In this document: positions 50,994 through 58,498 of the stretch, in pieces
Numbering within the stretch: position 1 is the stretch's first letter
Layout: the number at the start of each line of letters is the position of its first letter
Source of the DNA: Pontibacter sp. G13
GTDB lineage: Bacteria > Bacteroidota > Bacteroidia > J057
Assembly: GCF_031851795.1 (NCBI RefSeq)
Contig: NZ_CP134696.1
Coordinates: 6,138,001 to 6,202,000 of the forward strand
Length of the DNA stretch: 64,000 bases
Direction: 5' to 3'
The notes under the pieces: model-generated
The model's database searches: none
Told to the model about the DNA's origin: nothing
The model's input: the letters and a program-made list of their open reading frames with translations, nothing else
Translations under genes and position numbers: made by a program

Positions 50994-51776
50994 GAAGCTG
51001 TTCATGGGGGAGCTATGCTTGCTGCAAGCGCTCATTTGCAGAACCTCCCTTCGCCATTTTTTCGGCCATAGCCCCACTATGGCCTGCAAAACTGGCTTCG
51101 GGAGAACCTCCAACTGATCGCTTTCGCTGTCGCATATCCCCCCATGAACAGCTTCGTTTTTTGAGCTGGCTCTTGGCTTGCGGGTGAAAATTTGTAGAAT
51201 CTCTGTACGCGTTTTTTCGGCCAAGGACCCACTATGGCCTGCAAAACTGGCTTTGGGAGAACCTCCAACTGATCGCTTTCGCTGTCGCATATCCCCCCAT
51301 GAACAGCTTCGTTTTTTGAGCTTGCTCTTGGCTTGCGGGTGAAAATTTGTAGAATCTCTGTACGCGTTTTTTCGGCCATAGCCCCACTATGGCCTGCAAA
51401 ACTGGCTTCGGGAGAACCTCCAACTGATCGCTTTCGCTGTCGCCTATCCCCCCATGAACAGCTTCGTTTTTTGAGCTGGCTCTTGGCCTGTGGGTGAAAA
51501 TTTGAGGAACCTCCTTACGCGTTTTTTCGGCTATAGCCCCACTATGGCCTGCAAAACTGGCTTCGGGAGAACCTCCCACTGATCGCTTTCGCTGTCGCCT
51601 ATCCCCCCATGAACAGCTTCGTTTTTTGAGCTGGCTCTTGGCTTGCGGGTGAAAATTTGTAGAATCTCTGTACGCGTTTTTTCGGCCATAGCCCCACTAT
51701 GGCCTGCAAAACTGGCTTTGGGAGAACCTCCCCCTGATCGCTTTCGCCGTCGCATATCCCCCCATGAACAGCTTCG
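50994..51776. repeat. Array of 155-bp units bounded by GAAGCTGTT.. inverted repeats
   Basis: A complete 162-bp first element (50994-51155) opens with GAAGCTGTTCATGGGGG and closes with CCCCCATGAACAGCTTC. Its interior has the perfect hairpin GGCCATAG-CCCCA-CTATGGCC. The last part of the element is then repeated with a period of exactly 155 bases: the marker TTCGGCC lies at 51061, 51216, 51371, 51526 (as TTCGGCT) and 51681. The left inverted repeat occurs only once, the right one in every unit and followed by GTTTTTT in all but the last. Open frames in the array shift register at each unit and are not believable genes. Confidence 0.85.
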
Positions 51777-51910
51777 TTTCCGGCCATCGGATATGTGGGT
51801 ACGTTTTAGTATTTAATTTTTTGCATGGTAATGCAACCCACGAAAGGGTAATTTGCGACTCCTTACTGGGCGTGAAACGCCCAAGTGATCATCTCTTTAT
51901 CCGCTTTGGA

Positions 51911-52685: not shown

Positions 52686-54925
52686 TTGAAAAACCGAAGG
52701 ACTCGAATTCCATTGGAACGAATCGACCTCGGCCCCTTGCTCTGAAAAACCGAAGGACTCAAATTCCATTGGAATGAATCGACCTCGGCCCCTTGCTCTG
52801 AAAAACCGAAGGACTCAAATTCCATTGGAATGAATCGACCTCGGCCCCTTGCTCTGAAAAACCGAAGGACTCGAATTCCATTGGAATGAATCGACCTCGG
52901 CCCCTTGCTCTGAAAAACCGAAGGACTCGAATTCCATTGGAATGAATCGACCTCGGCCCCTTGCTCTGAAAAACCGAAGGACTCAAATTCCATTGGAATG
53001 AATCAACCTCGGCCCCTTGCTCTGAAAAACCGAAGGACTCAAATTCCATTGGAATGAATCGACCTCGGCCCCTTGCTCTGAAAAACCGAAGGACTCGAAT
53101 TCCATTGGAATGAATCGACCTCGGCCCCTTGCTCTGAAAAACCGAAGGACTCGAATTCCATTGGAATGAATCGACCTCGGCCCCTTGCTCTGAAAAACCG
53201 AAGGACTCAAATTCCATTGGAATGAATCAACCTCGGCCCCTTGCTCTGAAAAACCGAAGGACTCAAATTCCATTGGAATGAATCAACCTCGGCCCCTTGC
53301 TCTGAAAAACCGAAGGACTCGAATCCAATTTGGACGAATCAACCTCGGCCCCTTGCTCTGAAAAACCGAAGGACTCGAATTCCATTGGAACGAATCAACC
53401 TCGGCCCCTTGCTCTGAAAAACCGAAGGACTCGAATTCCATTGGAACGAATCAACCTCGGCCCCTTGCTCTGAAAAACCGAAGGACTCAAATTCCATTGG
53501 AATGAATCAACCTCGGCCCCTTGCTCTGAAAAACCGAAGGACTCAAATTCCATTGGAATGAATCAACCTCGGCCCCTTGCTCTGAAAAACCGAAGGACTC
53601 GAATTCCATTGGAACGAATCAACCTCGGCCCCTTGCTCTGAAAAACCGAAGGACTCGAATTCCATTGGAACGAATCGACCTCGGCCCCTTGCTCTGAAAA
53701 ACCGAAGGACTCGAATCCAATTTGGACGAATCGACCTCGGCCCCTTGCTCTGAAAAACCGAAGGACTCGAATCCAATTTGGACGAATCGACCTCGGCCCC
53801 TTGCTCTGAAAAACCGAAGGACTCGAATTCCATTGGAACGAATCGACCTCGGCCCCTTGCTCTGAAAAACCGAAGGACTCGAATCCAATTTGGACGAATC
53901 GACCTCGGCCCCTTGCTCTGAAAAACCGAAGGACTCGAATCCAATTTGGACGAATCGACCTCGGCCCCTTGCTCTGAAAAACCGAAGGACTCGAATCCAA
54001 TTTGGACGAATCAACCTCGGCCCCTTGCTCTGAAAAACCGAAGGACTCAAATTCCATTGGAATGAATCAACCTCGGCCCCTTGCTCTGAAAAACCGAAGG
54101 ACTCGAATTCCATTGGAACGAATCAACCTCGGCCCCTTGCTCTGAAAAACCGAAGGACTCAAATTCCATTGGAATGAATCAACCTCGGCCCCTTGCTCTG
54201 AAAAACCGAAGGACTCGAATTCCATTGGAACGAATCAACCTCGGCCCCTTGCTCTGAAAAACCGAAGGACTCAAATTCCATTGGAACGAATCGACCTCGG
54301 CCCCTTGCTCTGAAAAACCGAAGGACTCGAATTCCATTGGAACGAATCAACCTCGGCCCCTTGCTCTGAAAAACCGAAGGACTCGAATCCAATTTGGACG
54401 AATCGACCTCGGCCCCTTGCTCTGAAAAACCGAAGGACTCGAATTCCATTGGAACGAATCAACCTCGGCCCCTTGCTCTGAAAAACCGAAGGACTCAAAT
54501 TCCATTGGAATGAATCAACCTCGGCCCCTTGCTCTGAAAAACCGAAGGACTCGAATCCAATTTGGACGAATCGACCTCGGCCCCTTGCTCTGAAAAACCG
54601 AAGGACTCGAATCCAATTTGGACGAATCAACCTCGGCCCCTTGCTCTGAAAAACCGAAGGACTCGAATCCAATTTGGACGAATCGACCTCGGCCCCTTGC
54701 TCTGAAAAACCGAAGGACTCGAATCCAATTTGGACGAATCGACCTCGGCCCCTTGCTCTGAAAAACCGAAGGACTCGAATCCAATTTGGACGAATCAACC
54801 TCGGCCCCTTGCTCTGAAAAACCGAAGGACTCGAATTCCATTGGAACGAATCGACCTCGGCCCCTTGCTCTGAAAAACCGAAGGACTCGAATCCAATTTG
54901 GACGAATCGACCTCGGCCCCTTGCT
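52686..54925 (-). repeat. Forty-unit tandem array of a 56-bp hairpin element
   Basis: Exactly 40 units of 56 bp run without a spacer or length change (the CTGAAAAACCG start recurs every 56 bases; the first unit reads TTGAAAAACCG). On the minus strand each unit reads AGAGCAAGGGGCCGAGG, then GATTC, a variable hairpin, GAGTC, CCTTCGG and TTTTT. This parallels the 3' half of the three small-RNA genes at 56.9-57.7 kb. Two hairpin variants occur: 27 units read ATTCCATTGGAA and 13 read ATCCAATTTGGA on the plus strand, with pairing kept by two compensated base pairs. A third position pair also covaries (A with T in 11 units, G with C in 11). It is not CRISPR, because there are no unique spacers. Confidence 0.9.
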
Positions 54926-55194
54926 CTGAATAGTTGAACCGTCTACCTCATTGAGGAAACAAATCCAACCGGATGGCTTTTTTGTTTTTTTAACATTCGA
55001 CCCCATTTCTGGGAGGACCTTTCGAATGTTTCGCATGTCAAATAACTCCGTGCTGACAATACAAGTATAGGGAGGAAAAAGCCGCAATCGTCTATGTTTT
55101 GCTCCAATGGTTATTTTTATGGACAGAACGGTTTTTTTGGGTGGGATGAATGGTTTTTGATGATTCAGAGGTGGGAATAGTTTTATCATGTATA
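54926..55194. other. Flank of the 56-bp array
   Basis: The region between the array and the TonB/TPR terminator has no gene. On the minus strand its last bases before the array (GACGGTTCAACTATTCAGAGC) resemble, loosely, the leader of the small-RNA genes (GACGGTAATCC..ACAAGAGC), so it may be the remains of a founding copy's start. T-runs occur at 54978-54992. Confidence 0.4.
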
Positions 55195-55223
55195 TAAAAA
55201 AATGCAGCCTGAGAGGCTGCATT
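55195..55223 (-). terminator. Terminator of the TonB-C/TPR gene
   Basis: On the minus strand AATGCAGCCT pairs perfectly with AGGCTGCATT around CTC, followed by seven T in a row (including the stem end). It lies about 160 bases past the stop codon at 55381. Confidence 0.8.
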
Positions 55224-55380
55224 CTATGTTTTTTGCCATATTGATCGATGCTCGAATTTGAGATTAGATCAATATTGGAAATTCTATGTTCTGATTATTT
55301 CTCTGCGTGAGAATGGCTTATTCGGAAATCAAGAAATGGGATCTTGAAATGCGAATAGGGTGATTTGTCTAGCAATTAGG

Positions 55381-56490
55381 TCATCGTAATTCCTTAGGAT
55401 CATAACCACACTGATTGTTTAGCAATTGCTGCGCCAAACTCGCTGCTTGACCTGATAAACCCAATGCGAGCGACTGTTTCAGATTGCTGCAAGCCTCCTG
55501 TTTTCCATCCAACTCAATCAAAACAAGTGCCTTGTATAAATAGGGTTCCGGTGCTTTGGGTGATAGCTCGATAGCAGCTTGAATGTCGGTGAACGCTTGC
55601 TGGTGATGCCCGAGCAGCGAGTGTGCGTATCCTCTCCTGATCAGAGCGACCATTCTCAAGGCCGGATCTTGGTAATCTACAAGCACCTTATTAAAGTCTG
55701 AAATGGCTTTCATGGGTTTACCCATCGCATTCCAGGCGTTTCCTCTTTCTAGGTATATTCTAGGGATGAGCTCAGCGGTTCTGGGATCAGAATATTCGCA
55801 GGTAATGGCGACACCAGCCGCCTCGGTGAGATCATGTAATGCCATCTCCCATTTGGTCTGATAGATCGCCGATCGCGCTCTTTGGTAGAAAGCTTCTAAC
55901 AATACGCCCTGAAAAGGGTGATCCTCTTTGTTTTTGTGGGGATTGTATCGGATGCTTTTGGAGAATGAAAGCTCAGCTTGGTCATACTGACCTGTTTTGA
56001 GCATACTGAGTCCATGCTCTAGCGCTTCGATCGTCCGCCGCTTACTCACATGACCAGACATCCCGATCATGGTGTTGCGCATCTGGCGTTTGGCTGCCTT
56101 GGCGGAAGAAGCGTCAATTTGAAAGTCAATGGGGACATTCACCCAATACTTGAGGGCCTTCTGATCCCGTTTGGCGGGATAAAACTTGAGCAGATGAATT
56201 TGCTCATTGACGGCTTCGTTCAACACGGGGTGCGCATAGCGAGTGATCCGGTGCTTGACATACTCCCCTTGTTCATTGACTAAGACTCGGCAATAGATTT
56301 TTCCTTCAATACCAGCTTTGAGTGCCTTGACGGGATAGCCAATGGCTTTCCGGACTTCCCCCATGTTAATAGGTTCCGGTTCCCGATCTACATACACGAA
56401 TTCATGAATGTGAGGATCTGATCCGACGATCTGAGCGCACAGAGACCCTCCTGTTAAGAGCAGGAGAAAAAGTGAGAGAACGACTTTCAT
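55381..56490 (-). CDS. TonB C-terminal domain / TPR exported protein
   Basis: This 369-residue exported protein has a signal peptide (MKVVLSLFLLLLTGGSLCAQ). Residues about 35-125 form a TonB C-terminal-like domain (IGYPVKALKAGIEGKIYCRVLVNEQGEYVKHRITRYAHPVLNEAVNEQIHLLKFYPAK). Residues 155-365 contain TPR units (GLSMLKTGQYDQAELSFSKSIRYNPHK, MKAISDFNKVLVDYQDPALRMVALIRRG, QQAFTDIQAAIELSPKAPEPYLYKAL). There is no membrane anchor like true TonB, so it may be a periplasmic partner protein. The start at 56490 is a clear ATG. Confidence 0.82.
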   Translation of the reverse strand: MKVVLSLFLLLLTGGSLCAQIVGSDPHIHEFVYVDREPEPINMGEVRKAIGYPVKALKAGIEGKIYCRVLVNEQGEYVKHRITRYAHPVLNEAVNEQIHLLKFYPAKRDQKALKYWVNVPIDFQIDASSAKAAKRQMRNTMIGMSGHVSKRRTIEALEHGLSMLKTGQYDQAELSFSKSIRYNPHKNKEDHPFQGVLLEAFYQRARSAIYQTKWEMALHDLTEAAGVAITCEYSDPRTAELIPRIYLERGNAWNAMGKPMKAISDFNKVLVDYQDPALRMVALIRRGYAHSLLGHHQQAFTDIQAAIELSPKAPEPYLYKALVLIELDGKQEACSNLKQSLALGLSGQAASLAQQLLNNQCGYDPKELR

Positions 56491-56906: not shown

Positions 56907-56936
56907 TTGGACTCCAAAGGAGTTCAACTACATTTG
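56907..56936 (+). promoter_or_regulatory. Promoter of small-RNA copy 1
   Basis: TTG at 56907-56909, exactly 19 bases, then TACATTTG at 56929-56936. This is a full match to the Bacteroidota consensus and places the start near 56943, at the CAGGA stem. Confidence 0.75.
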
Positions 56937-56940
56937 AATC

Positions 56941-57021
56941 AACAGGACGGTAATCCTGGAATTACAAGAGCAAGGGCTAGGGTTGATTCGTTTCCGATGG
57001 AAACTGAGTCCCCTAGTTTTT
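56941..57021 (+). ncRNA. Predicted small RNA, copy 1 of 3
   Basis: It begins with a hairpin CAGGA-CGGTAA-TCCTG, has a single-stranded linker GAATTACAAGAGCAAGGG, and ends in a terminator. The terminator closes with CTAGGG/CCCTAG, continues GATTC/GAGTC, and has an upper stem GTTTCC-GAT-GGAAAC, followed by TTTTT. Forty-odd bases up to CTAGGGT are identical in all three copies, while the upper stem differs but stays paired. A consensus promoter lies just upstream. There is no ribosome-binding site or credible open frame. I do not recognise the family. Confidence 0.75.
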
Positions 57022-57300: not shown

Positions 57301-57330
57301 TTGCTAATGGGGGTGAGTTGAGTACATTTG
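57301..57330 (+). promoter_or_regulatory. Promoter of small-RNA copy 2
   Basis: TTG at 57301-57303, exactly 19 bases, then TACATTTG at 57323-57330. Spacing and -7 box are the same as for copy 1 although the spacer sequence differs. Confidence 0.75.
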
Positions 57331-57334
57331 AATC

Positions 57335-57417
57335 AACAGGACGGTAATCCTGGAATTACAAGAGCAAGGGCTAGGGTTGATTCGTCTCCGATGGAGGCTG
57401 AGTCCCCTAGTTTTTTT
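57335..57417 (+). ncRNA. Predicted small RNA, copy 2 of 3
   Basis: It has the same 5' hairpin, linker and terminator as copy 1. The upper terminator stem is GTCTCC-GAT-GGAGGC, where copy 1 has GTTTCC/GGAAAC; the changed bases still pair. It ends in seven T. Between copies 1 and 2 the sequence is unrelated, so conservation is confined to the promoter boxes and RNA. Confidence 0.75.
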
Positions 57418-57589: not shown

Positions 57590-57671
57590 AACAGGACGGT
57601 AATCCTGGAATTACAAGAGCAAGGGCTAGGGTAGATTCATCCCTTCGGGATTTGAGTCCCCTAGTTTTTTT
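57590..57671 (+). ncRNA. Predicted small RNA, copy 3 of 3
   Basis: It has the same conserved core from ACAGGACGG to CTAGGG. The upper terminator stem is quite different (ATCCC-TTC-GGGAT) but again fully paired, and seven T follow. The promoter is weaker: TACTTTTA at 57576-57583 stands where TACATTTG is in the others, and no good TTG is at the right distance. Two bases after the T-run the GAAGCTGTT array begins. Confidence 0.7.
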
Positions 57672-57673
57672 AT

Positions 57674-58498
57674 GAAGCTGTTGAAGGCTATCTATTCCTG
57701 CTGCAAAGGTCTATTTCCAGAACCTCAATTCGTCATTTTTTCGGCCATAGCCCCACTATGCCCTGCAAAAATGACTTCTTGAGAACCTGAAACTAGCCCT
57801 TTTCGCGACGGAATATCCAGCCTTCAACAGCTTCTCTGGGTTTGCGGGTAGCCATCTATTCCTGCTGCAAAGGTCTATTTCCAGCCCCTCGATCATCGGG
57901 ATTTCTCCCACCTTCGCCTTATTTCCCCCAAAAAACGGCTTTGACCGAACTTGAGCTTGATCCTTGCGCGACGGAATATCCAGCCTTCAACAGTTTCTCT
58001 GGGTTTGTGGGTAGCCATCTATTGCTGCTGCAAAGGTCTATTTCCAGCCCCTCGATCATCGGGTTTTCTCCCACCTTCGCCTTATTTCCCAAAATGGCTT
58101 TGACCGAACTTGAGCTTGATCCTTTCGCGACGGAATATCCAGCCTTCAACGGCTTCTCTGGGTTTGTAGGTAGCCATCTATTCCTGCTGCAAAGGTCTCT
58201 TTCCAGCCCCTCGGTCATCGGGTTTTCTCCCACCTTCGCCTTATTTCCCCAAAACGGCTTTGACCGAACTTGAGCTTGATCCTTGGGCGACGGAATATCC
58301 AGCCTTCAACAGCTTCTCTGGGTTTGCGGGTAGCCATCTATTCCTGCTGCAAAGGTCTATTTCCAGCCCCTCGGTCATCGGGTTTTCTCCCACCTTCGCC
58401 TTATTTCCCCAAAAACGTCTTTGACCGAACTTGAGCTTGATTCTTTTCTCACCGGAATATCCAGCCTTCAACAGCTTCTCTGGGTTTGCGGGTAGCCA
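57674..58498. repeat. Array of about 160-bp units bounded by GAAGCTGTT.. inverted repeats
   Basis: The first element (57674-57834, 161 bp) opens with GAAGCTGTTGAAGGCT and closes with AGCCTTCAACAGCTTC. It shares with the 50994 array the core TTTTTTCGGCCATAGCCCC and the AGAACCT boxes, so both are one family. Four further units follow with periods of 159-163 bases (marker GCCATCT at 57851, 58014, 58173, 58333). Their interiors are diverged, reading CCAGCCCCTCG..ATCGGG. The stems of the two arrays differ in sequence (CATGGGGG against GAAGGCT) but pair in both. Frame-shifting units argue against coding. Confidence 0.8.

Follow-up and report, generated by a model that had tools for sequence, protein, structure and literature searches.

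What does a block of forty near-identical 56-base units do beside three small RNA (sRNA) genes built from the same parts? The block lies in a 64,000-nt stretch of the Pontibacter sp. G13 chromosome (NZ_CP134696.1, positions 6,138,001 to 6,202,000; hereafter the window, whose own numbering is used below), and an earlier note made from the sequence alone had described it as an amplified 3′ half of the neighbouring sRNA gene, serving perhaps as a ladder of terminators, a sponge or a DNA hairpin site for a recombinase. Comparison across related genomes indicates that the repeated module is a real RNA family, and a circuit in which a LytTR two-component system controls both the sRNA and its arrays is well supported by promoter and neighbourhood sequences. 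For the array itself we favour, at about even chances, the reading that its RNA is an output of this system in which the minimal module has been concatenated for dose, probably titrating a partner. Genomes, loci and families are cited by our own running labels (G, L and f). The array and its stand-alone relatives in the window are these:

52688-54927, minus strand: array of 40 units of 56 nt, from Tandem Repeats Finder (TRF), unit cut, folds and pair counts
54928-55056, minus strand: array leader of ~130 nt from promoter to first unit, with hairpin CCTCAATGAGG; putative transcription start
56929-56936, plus strand: −7 box TACATTTG of type A copy 1
56940-57021, plus strand: stand-alone sRNA, type A copy 1 (module 56967-57021; putative 5′ end)
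57323-57330, plus strand: −7 box TACATTTG of type A copy 2
57335-57417, plus strand: stand-alone sRNA, type A copy 2 (module 57361-57417; putative 5′ end)
57590-57671, plus strand: stand-alone sRNA, type A copy 3 (module 57616-57671; putative 5′ end)

TRF found 40.1 copies of period 56 in the window at 52687-54930, with 96% matches and 0% indels, and cutting the minus strand at AGAGCAAGGGGCCGAGG gave exactly 40 units with 39 spacings of 56. A 40-unit array in 56-base register, far beyond chance, is thereby confirmed; the two methods agree with the register first described, and only the bounds, then placed at 52686-54925, required correction to 52688-54927. Each unit comprises AGAGCAAGGGG, a bulged hairpin (CCGAGG..CTTCGG, GATTC..GAGTC and a variable inner hairpin) and TTTTTC. 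The closing stem once read as CCGA/TCGG exists and is longer, with six pairs between CCGAGG and CTTCGG including one G-U, and the GATTC/GAGTC part is present as described and proves to be itself a helix, with U-G in its middle. Type A copy 1 consists of a 5′ hairpin (CAGGA..TCCTG), the linker ATTACAAGAGCAAGGG and a terminator module; as had been noted, the parts follow in like order in the array units and in the three stand-alone sRNAs ~2 kb away, and the units are homologous to linker plus terminator hairpin of the latter. The 40 units comprise 8 sequence variants that differ in 7 of the first 55 columns, six of which make up three base pairs of the predicted fold while the seventh (column 19) falls in a bulge. 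Columns 27/35 (C-G in 13 units, T-A in 27) and 29/33 (A-T in 13, C-G in 27) are each paired in 40 of 40 and form one linked haplotype; columns 25/39 (G-C in 24, A-T in 11, G-T in 1, A-C in 4) are paired in 36 of 40.

Homologous arrays occur in five other genomes, so that 6 of the 13 genomes of the family, the window's included, have one. They span six genera, with 3-40 units of period 52-58: 18 units of 52 nt in G004, 7 of 56 in G006, 4 of 52 in G005, 3 of 53 in G003 and at least 5 of 58 in G008, where contig ends break the array (short-read assemblies may collapse arrays, and the genomes G003, G005 and G008 are fragmented). Compensatory changes could be seen by eye, with one pair being C-G or U-A in all 7 units of G006 and another A-U or G-C in all 4 units of G005.

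When three variants of the window's unit were folded singly, each formed one long bulged hairpin (−19.1 to −20.6 kcal/mol, z −2.2 to −2.8). The module hairpin has two offset bulges, GGG-UN-GAYUC-hairpin-UU-GAGUC-CCC, followed by a U-run and preceded in most types by a GAGCA linker; in the folds the linker is unpaired save for possible G-U pairing of AAGGG with the U-run. Covariation was counted in two alignments. They were drawn from 93 distinct modules, which include 46 stand-alone ones; alignment A1 has 45 of the latter, without one L054 copy, together with L010, and was built from exact AGAGCAAGGG matches, whose invariance there is by construction. The earlier note had rated covariation among stand-alone copies above that within one array, and it was found: the 46 modules (45 distinct) had 97.8% of cells paired, and both sides had changed in 79 cells, where shuffles averaged 24.5 and 0 of 500 reached as many, a count that ignores kinship. 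Two further counts were less striking: 7 of 14 pairs with two-sided change against 5.9 in shuffles (equalled or exceeded in 14 of 500) and 20 pair types against 19.0. Alignment A3 holds 27 chosen array units from the six genomes, with one inner pair, whose register differs between genomes, outside the structure counted; here 98.9% of cells were paired, 43 were two-sided against 12.7 in shuffles (0 of 500), and 6 of 14 pairs showed two-sided change against 4.5 (69 of 500 as high). Across the six genomes the outer stems of the arrays are unlike those of most stand-alone copies and are still paired. AGAGC, GATTC and GAGTC are unchanged in the 27 units, and the middle pair of GAUUC/GAGUC is U-G in all 27, so the opposite strand would have A-C at this place. 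The interior T-runs of arrays are T4-T6, the stand-alone U-runs have a median of 7, and the last unit has the longest run in 5 of the 6 arrays. Judged by eye, GUAA and UUAC of the 5′ domain might form an H-type pseudoknot, an idea dropped because copies in G002 and G005 break it.

Stand-alone copies were typed by their 5′ part: A (the window's form), B (GAAAGGGCGATAATCCTGGATTACA), C (CAACAGGTTAAAGTAAAGAA), D (GGCATTACGCCAGATACAGAAGCTAGGGG), E (family f50) and the f46 forms. Nearly all share the hairpin GGG-UN-GAYUC-hairpin-GAGUC-CCC-U, with a few departures, GAATC/GATTC in G007 for one; what precedes it is GAGCA in types A, B, C and f46, GAAGC in D and GAGAGG in E. Of 89 upstream regions, 40 have an exact TANNTTTG box no farther than 60 nt upstream, against 2.2 in shuffles. 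Because this box is 16-21 nt before GAGCA in order-level and some f46 copies, their RNA would be little more than the module; given such minimal stand-alone RNAs in other families, the array appears to repeat the core of the family and not a fragment of it. The earlier 'repeat of the 3′ half' stands as a homology but apparently not as a fragment, and the 5′ hairpin seen in the window's copies was apparently added in their lineage. A further sRNA subtype (GAGCAATAAGGGTYGACTC) was seen in two genomes of genus g3, at L248:4109- and L249:3682+, beside a gene with a cytochrome-c-like CASCH motif, and each f50 genome with a match has a single copy, which by eye adjoins a purD-like gene at L145, L147 and L148.

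In the samples covered, the family has a narrow distribution within Bacteroidota. A covariance model (R1) matched 19 of the 22 genomes of the order at E ≤ 0.01; its 48 matches in the window's own genome are the 40 array units, the three window copies and five elsewhere. In a class sample R1 matched 21 of 295 genomes at E ≤ 0.001, those outside the order belonging only to f46 (3 genomes) and f50 (9), and a wider model (R2), with matches in 27 of 395 genomes, gave the same picture plus one weak further match, in G064. Among the 395 genomes of the phylum sample R1 found the own genome alone, under stricter filters by which weak matches were lost. As for simpler patterns, the 37-base stretch of 5′ hairpin plus linker recurred with at most 3 mismatches in 7 of 21 genomes, and AGAGCAAGGG followed by GATTC within 12 bases in 19 of 40, at least the G036 match being without the rest of the module. 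A named collection, which may omit records of the window's own genome, gave 36 stretches that matched an exact pattern. Of these, 35 were on Bacteroidota metagenome records; we take the other, on a Rhodanobacter contig and without the GAGTC half, as a chance match. A scan of viral_contigs with the module pattern gave 0 matches. The earlier note had known of no described family, and Rfam 15 agrees, with 0 matches in the window at the gathering threshold. When seven sRNA loci were compared with Rfam at E ≤ 10, only sub-threshold matches appeared, mostly to microRNA models elsewhere; one weak Twister-sister match (20.9 bits, threshold 34) overlaps an sRNA copy in L002.

Inspection of the 8 variants gave no exact TANNTTTG inside the unit; a promoter lies instead before the first unit, with the following elements:

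55062-55069, minus strand: −7 element TATACTTG, of the TANNTTTG type with one mismatch
55104-55154, minus strand: three LytTR-box-like repeats (in-phase test; predicted binding)
55147-55154, minus strand: box 1, ACCATTCA, 85 nt upstream of the −7 box
55125-55132, minus strand: box 2, ACCGTTCT, 63 nt upstream of the −7 box
55104-55111, minus strand: box 3, ACCATTGG, the weakest, 42 nt upstream of the −7 box

The string TATACTTG occurs also in the type B sRNA promoter of the own genome (L058). For the wider comparison, near-identical upstream regions were removed, as were rows with none of GAGCA, AGAAGCTA and CAGAGAGG close to the module, leaving 99, of which 89 were non-array. Upstream of the stand-alone copies, ACCGTTCA-like boxes recur at 21-bp steps, with 69 motifs in the 89 regions, where mononucleotide shuffles give 7.1. 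Of the 52 box pairs no more than 70 bp apart, 49 are spaced by 21, 42 or 63 bp (0.025 such pairs in shuffles), and 41 of 54 distances from box to −7 keep a fixed helical phase, being 42 (15), 63 (12), 84 (10) or 105 (4) nt. LytTR proteins bind direct repeats mostly 12 bp apart, and repeats 11-13 bp apart upstream of the promoter were our mark of a LytTR promoter (PMC6193735); 4 of the 6 arrays and 21 of 84 stand-alone copies have them. The same numbers pass a strict test of at least two boxes in phase, the window's array with three (the 84 are stand-alone rows with first array units also removed), against 0.12-0.17% of random windows (0.12% of 6000 300-nt windows) and 4 of 637 gene upstream regions. 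By type the passing copies are 4 of 22 for A, 3 of 6 for B, 4 of 7 for C, 2 of 24 others, 0 of 8 for D, 0 of 9 for E and 8 of 8 for f46 (three genomes, one genus). With a LytTR-type promoter before it, the array is probably part of a two-component circuit.

A candidate for the regulator is encoded close by in many genomes. Orthologues of one LytTR response regulator, among them that at L058:8565-9332, were identified in 21 of the 22 genomes; they are 52-100% identical, with paralogues at no more than 40%. The row of a stand-alone copy, a LytS-like kinase gene and this LytTR regulator gene was found in 9 of the 13 family genomes (G000, G001, G002, G003, G004, G006, G007, G009 and G010) and in G021. 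Among the exceptions the row is cut by a contig end in G005 and is without a regulator match in G011, no sRNA copy adjoins the regulator in G012 and G008, and in G014-G018 the sRNA copies found sit on contigs other than the regulator's. The array of G008 itself lies 217 nt upstream of a kinase homologue, 39% identical to the kinase of G000.

The favoured reading, that of a LytTR-driven concatemer acting by titration, would then run as follows. The LytS-like/LytTR system would switch on the sRNA family, its conserved regulator binding the promoter boxes, with the array as the concatenated form. Since the interior U-runs are short, the array would yield a long multi-module RNA, a ladder or processed monomers. 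The purpose would be dose, many copies of one binding module behind one promoter, and a partner recognising GAGCA and the bulged hairpin would be titrated, much as CsrB/RsmZ RNAs titrate CsrA/RsmA. We favour titration, which we infer, because what arrays retain is just the module that the types share, the variable 5′ part being dropped, because of the CsrB/RsmZ precedent and because Hfq exceeded the cut-off in 0 of the 22 order genomes (one weak sub-threshold match, in G014). Several observations weigh against this. Most stand-alone copies fail the strict promoter test, the three type A copies in the window are without convincing repeats, and the arrays of G003 (by eye, two boxes 21 bp apart and a −7 box at 45) and G005 (one box) fail too; motif and geometry were defined after viewing the sequences, with controls under the same criteria, and related genomes are not independent. 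In the window's array, the exception among the six, the U-run of the last unit is no longer than the others, and a generic terminator scan, which disallows bulged stems, flagged no array unit (7 sites against 7.0 expected). Searches for a partner protein found none: RRM proteins, a possible partner, are present in 18 of 22 genomes and absent from G014, which has two sRNA copies, and TROVE/Ro60 is present in just 4 of the 13 family genomes, the window's not among them. Finally, complements of the linker exceed a reversed control in four genomes and three complement sites lie just inside an open reading frame (ORF) start, which would favour base pairing.

That alternative, a trans-acting base-pairing sRNA with seed AGAGCAAGGG, would keep the LytTR control and have the array multiply the seed as a terminated ladder or as cut monomers. 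We regard it as unlikely, and as the rival to be taken most seriously. The linker is mostly unpaired, keeps GAGCA in types A, B, C and f46 and would in order-level copies stand at the 5′ end of the RNA; the short interior U-runs and the longer final and stand-alone runs described above suit a ladder; and tandem sRNA copies can act in this way, as NsiR1 does (PMC9045159). Sites of the complement CCCTTGCTCT outside sRNA copies, which were subtracted by hand, outnumber those of the reversed pattern, a rough control, by 12 to 2 in G002, 19 to 13 in G004, 12 to 5 in G006 and 17 to 3 in G010, and at L167, L172 and L174 the complement falls 19-37 nt past the start of an ORF. The own genome, however, has no such excess (10 non-sRNA sites against 12 reversed), and among the 28 complement loci listed of 30 (4 being sRNA copies) most sites lie inside or antisense to ORFs. 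Only 2 of 21 neighbouring gene starts, those of the G021 kinase and the G010 TROVE gene, reach or exceed the best of 60 shuffles in a seed test with hand-chosen loci and starts, and Hfq is, as said, over the cut-off in none of the 22 order genomes.

Decidedly improbable, in our judgement, is a minisatellite that grew from the sRNA gene by slippage or unequal crossing-over and whose only functions are those of the ancestral promoter and hairpin. The near-identical units (8 variants in 40), a period (52, 53, 56, 58) and copy number (3 to 40) that vary by genome and the finding of arrays in only 6 of 13 family genomes are what it would predict. It fits poorly with the compensatory changes within and between arrays, with arrays in six genera whose AGAGC, GATTC and GAGTC stay unchanged in 27 aligned units, with the phased LytTR-type promoter at 4 of 6 arrays and with the G008 array upstream of a kinase homologue, where other genomes have a stand-alone copy.

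A DNA-level element, whether a hairpin site for a recombinase or integrase (attC-like), as the earlier note had allowed, or a mobile repeat of the repetitive extragenic palindrome or miniature inverted-repeat transposable element type, is very improbable: the array is tandem, intergenic and rich in inverted repeats, but the U-G pair of all 27 array units cannot form on the other strand, exact TANNTTTG boxes precede the copies far above shuffle level, no recombinase or transposase domain was found among the neighbour proteins scanned, and synteny with the two-component locus holds across genera. Least credible is an antitoxin RNA array of a type III toxin-antitoxin system. Structured tandem RNA repeats behind one promoter would suit it, but with the domain and defence libraries no toxin gene was found downstream of the repeats. 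What follows the array is a convergent gene in the window and G003, a same-strand dynamin-like GTPase gene directly downstream in G004, G005 and G006 and a kinase gene in G008; among 8 neighbours compared with the defence library none resembled such a toxin, the similarities being to Leo-type and type I restriction proteins instead. (The GTPase genes at L039, L042 and L043 are those similar to Leo defence proteins.) A CRISPR array is rejected, the whole 56-base unit being repeated in 8 variants among 40 in place of identical repeats with unique spacers, and a coding reading is rejected because periods of 52, 53, 56 and 58 are not multiples of 3, for which reason the ORFs through the window's array also look like by-products. 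Mobile-element, coding, CRISPR, toxin-antitoxin and recombination-site readings are thus all disfavoured.

LytTR-type boxes occur beyond the sRNA too. The double box AMCRTTCR-N13-AMCRTTCR occurs at 37 places in the 22 genomes, against 10 for the reversed pattern. Thirteen of the 37 could be assigned: 8 are 94-124 nt upstream of sRNA modules, G003 and G009 each have one upstream of a TROVE/Ro60 gene, and one in G000 and two in G004, which overlap, are 2.5-3.2 kb upstream of RtcB genes with other genes between. TROVE genes are followed by tRNA genes in G006 (23), G009 (7) and G010 (27); that of G010 is also preceded by boxes, and the box scan found none at that of G006. Viewed by locus, TROVE-type genes lie at L242, L244, L256 and L257, with tRNA clusters (7, 23 and 27) after those of L244, L256 and L257, and LytTR-type boxes plus about 500 nt precede the TROVE ORF at L242, L244 and L257. 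At L241 (own genome, C1:2646000-2656000) LytTR-type boxes at 2282-2331 are followed by ~1 kb without a clear gene and then by tRNA-Gln, tRNA-Cys, HNH, an acetyltransferase-like gene and RtcB RNA ligase, an order of genes suggestive of RNA repair, with a promoter of the same sort as the sRNA's. TROVE was found in 7 of the 80 genomes searched. Boxes before TROVE genes had suggested that the sRNA might be a Y RNA of Ro60/TROVE. This fails as a general account, since most sRNA-bearing genomes, G000 among them, lack TROVE; the sRNA is thus not simply its Y RNA. By analogy there is a hint that the LytTR-box regulon may be an RNA-damage or translation-stress response. The analogies are with the Salmonella rsr-yrlBA-rtcBA operon, which broken tRNAs induce (PMC7790460), and with the Anabaena trn operon (PMC10272220). 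The likeness to the Salmonella RNA repair operon is that LytTR-type boxes here precede TROVE/Ro60 genes and lie upstream of RtcB; the difference is the absence of TROVE from most sRNA-bearing genomes.

Other features of the window's sRNA locus are these:

55199-55225, minus strand: terminator-like hairpin between the upstream gene and the array (terminator scan)
55381-56490, minus strand: gene for a TonB_C + TPR protein, between the array and the stand-alone sRNAs

Homologues of this protein (29-38% identical) are encoded beside sRNA copies or arrays in G004, G005 and G006. TRF also reported tandem arrays on both sides of the sRNA locus, at 51057-51779 (155 bp x 4.7) and 57804-58498 (160 bp x 4.3), and by eye the stretch TTTTTTCGGCCATAGCCCCACTATG of the first was found once more, before the second.

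A bolder form of the favoured reading can be offered only tentatively: one LytTR-driven transcript might carry up to 40 head-to-tail complete minimal sRNAs, each with a weak intrinsic terminator. Read-through would set the number of modules, so that the polymer would vary by degrees in length and valency, and it would work alongside monomeric siblings in a stress circuit whose other targets in the lineage would be Ro60/tRNA-cluster and RtcB RNA-repair genes. This would make an sRNA family not described before, together with a candidate for the signalling system above it, in a little-studied Bacteroidota order for which the named collection gave metagenome-assembled records only. If the proposal is true, one could test how RNA polymerase passes tens of terminators, how copy number tunes RNA dose and valency, and what protein or RNA recognises the bulged GAUUC/GAGUC hairpin. 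Boxes of this type, seen both ahead of Ro60 genes that have tRNA clusters and upstream of RtcB, would point to a regulon for RNA damage or translation stress outside the RtcR paradigm.

Known systems offer partial parallels. CsrB/RsmZ RNAs under GacA are driven by two-component systems and carry several protein-binding sites (PMC5109040, PMC12047976), and NsiR1 of Nostoc is an sRNA of ~60 nt with 12 tandem copies, seven of them identical, each with its own promoter, under developmental control (PMC9045159). The module repeated here behind a two-component promoter resembles the former, but its units are near-identical and terminator-like, its regulator is LytTR and not GacA, and the folds of three unit variants and the eight variants show no GGA in a hairpin loop (no search for CsrA was made). 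Tandem copies of a short sRNA are shared with NsiR1, to which we claim no sequence relation; the array unit here is without its own promoter, one LytTR-type promoter standing before the units in 4 of the 6 arrays. In Firmicutes, LytTR regulators drive regulatory RNAs, VR-RNA under VirR and RNAIII under AgrA; that is the common feature with the present family, which differs in having module arrays where those are single RNAs, and we know of no module arrays for either. Multicopy paralogous sRNAs, as seen here, are in Bacteroidota reportedly represented by the FopS family of Bacteroides with RbpB. Compared by description only, the module differs in being confined to its order plus f46, f50 and one weak match, and RRM proteins do not strictly track it (G014). 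Titles and abstract openings, most subscription papers being outside reach, gave no description of such an array design. The family is new to Rfam 15, while LytTR-controlled sRNAs and tandem sRNA arrays are kinds already known; to our knowledge this would be the first concatemer of complete terminator-bearing sRNA modules.

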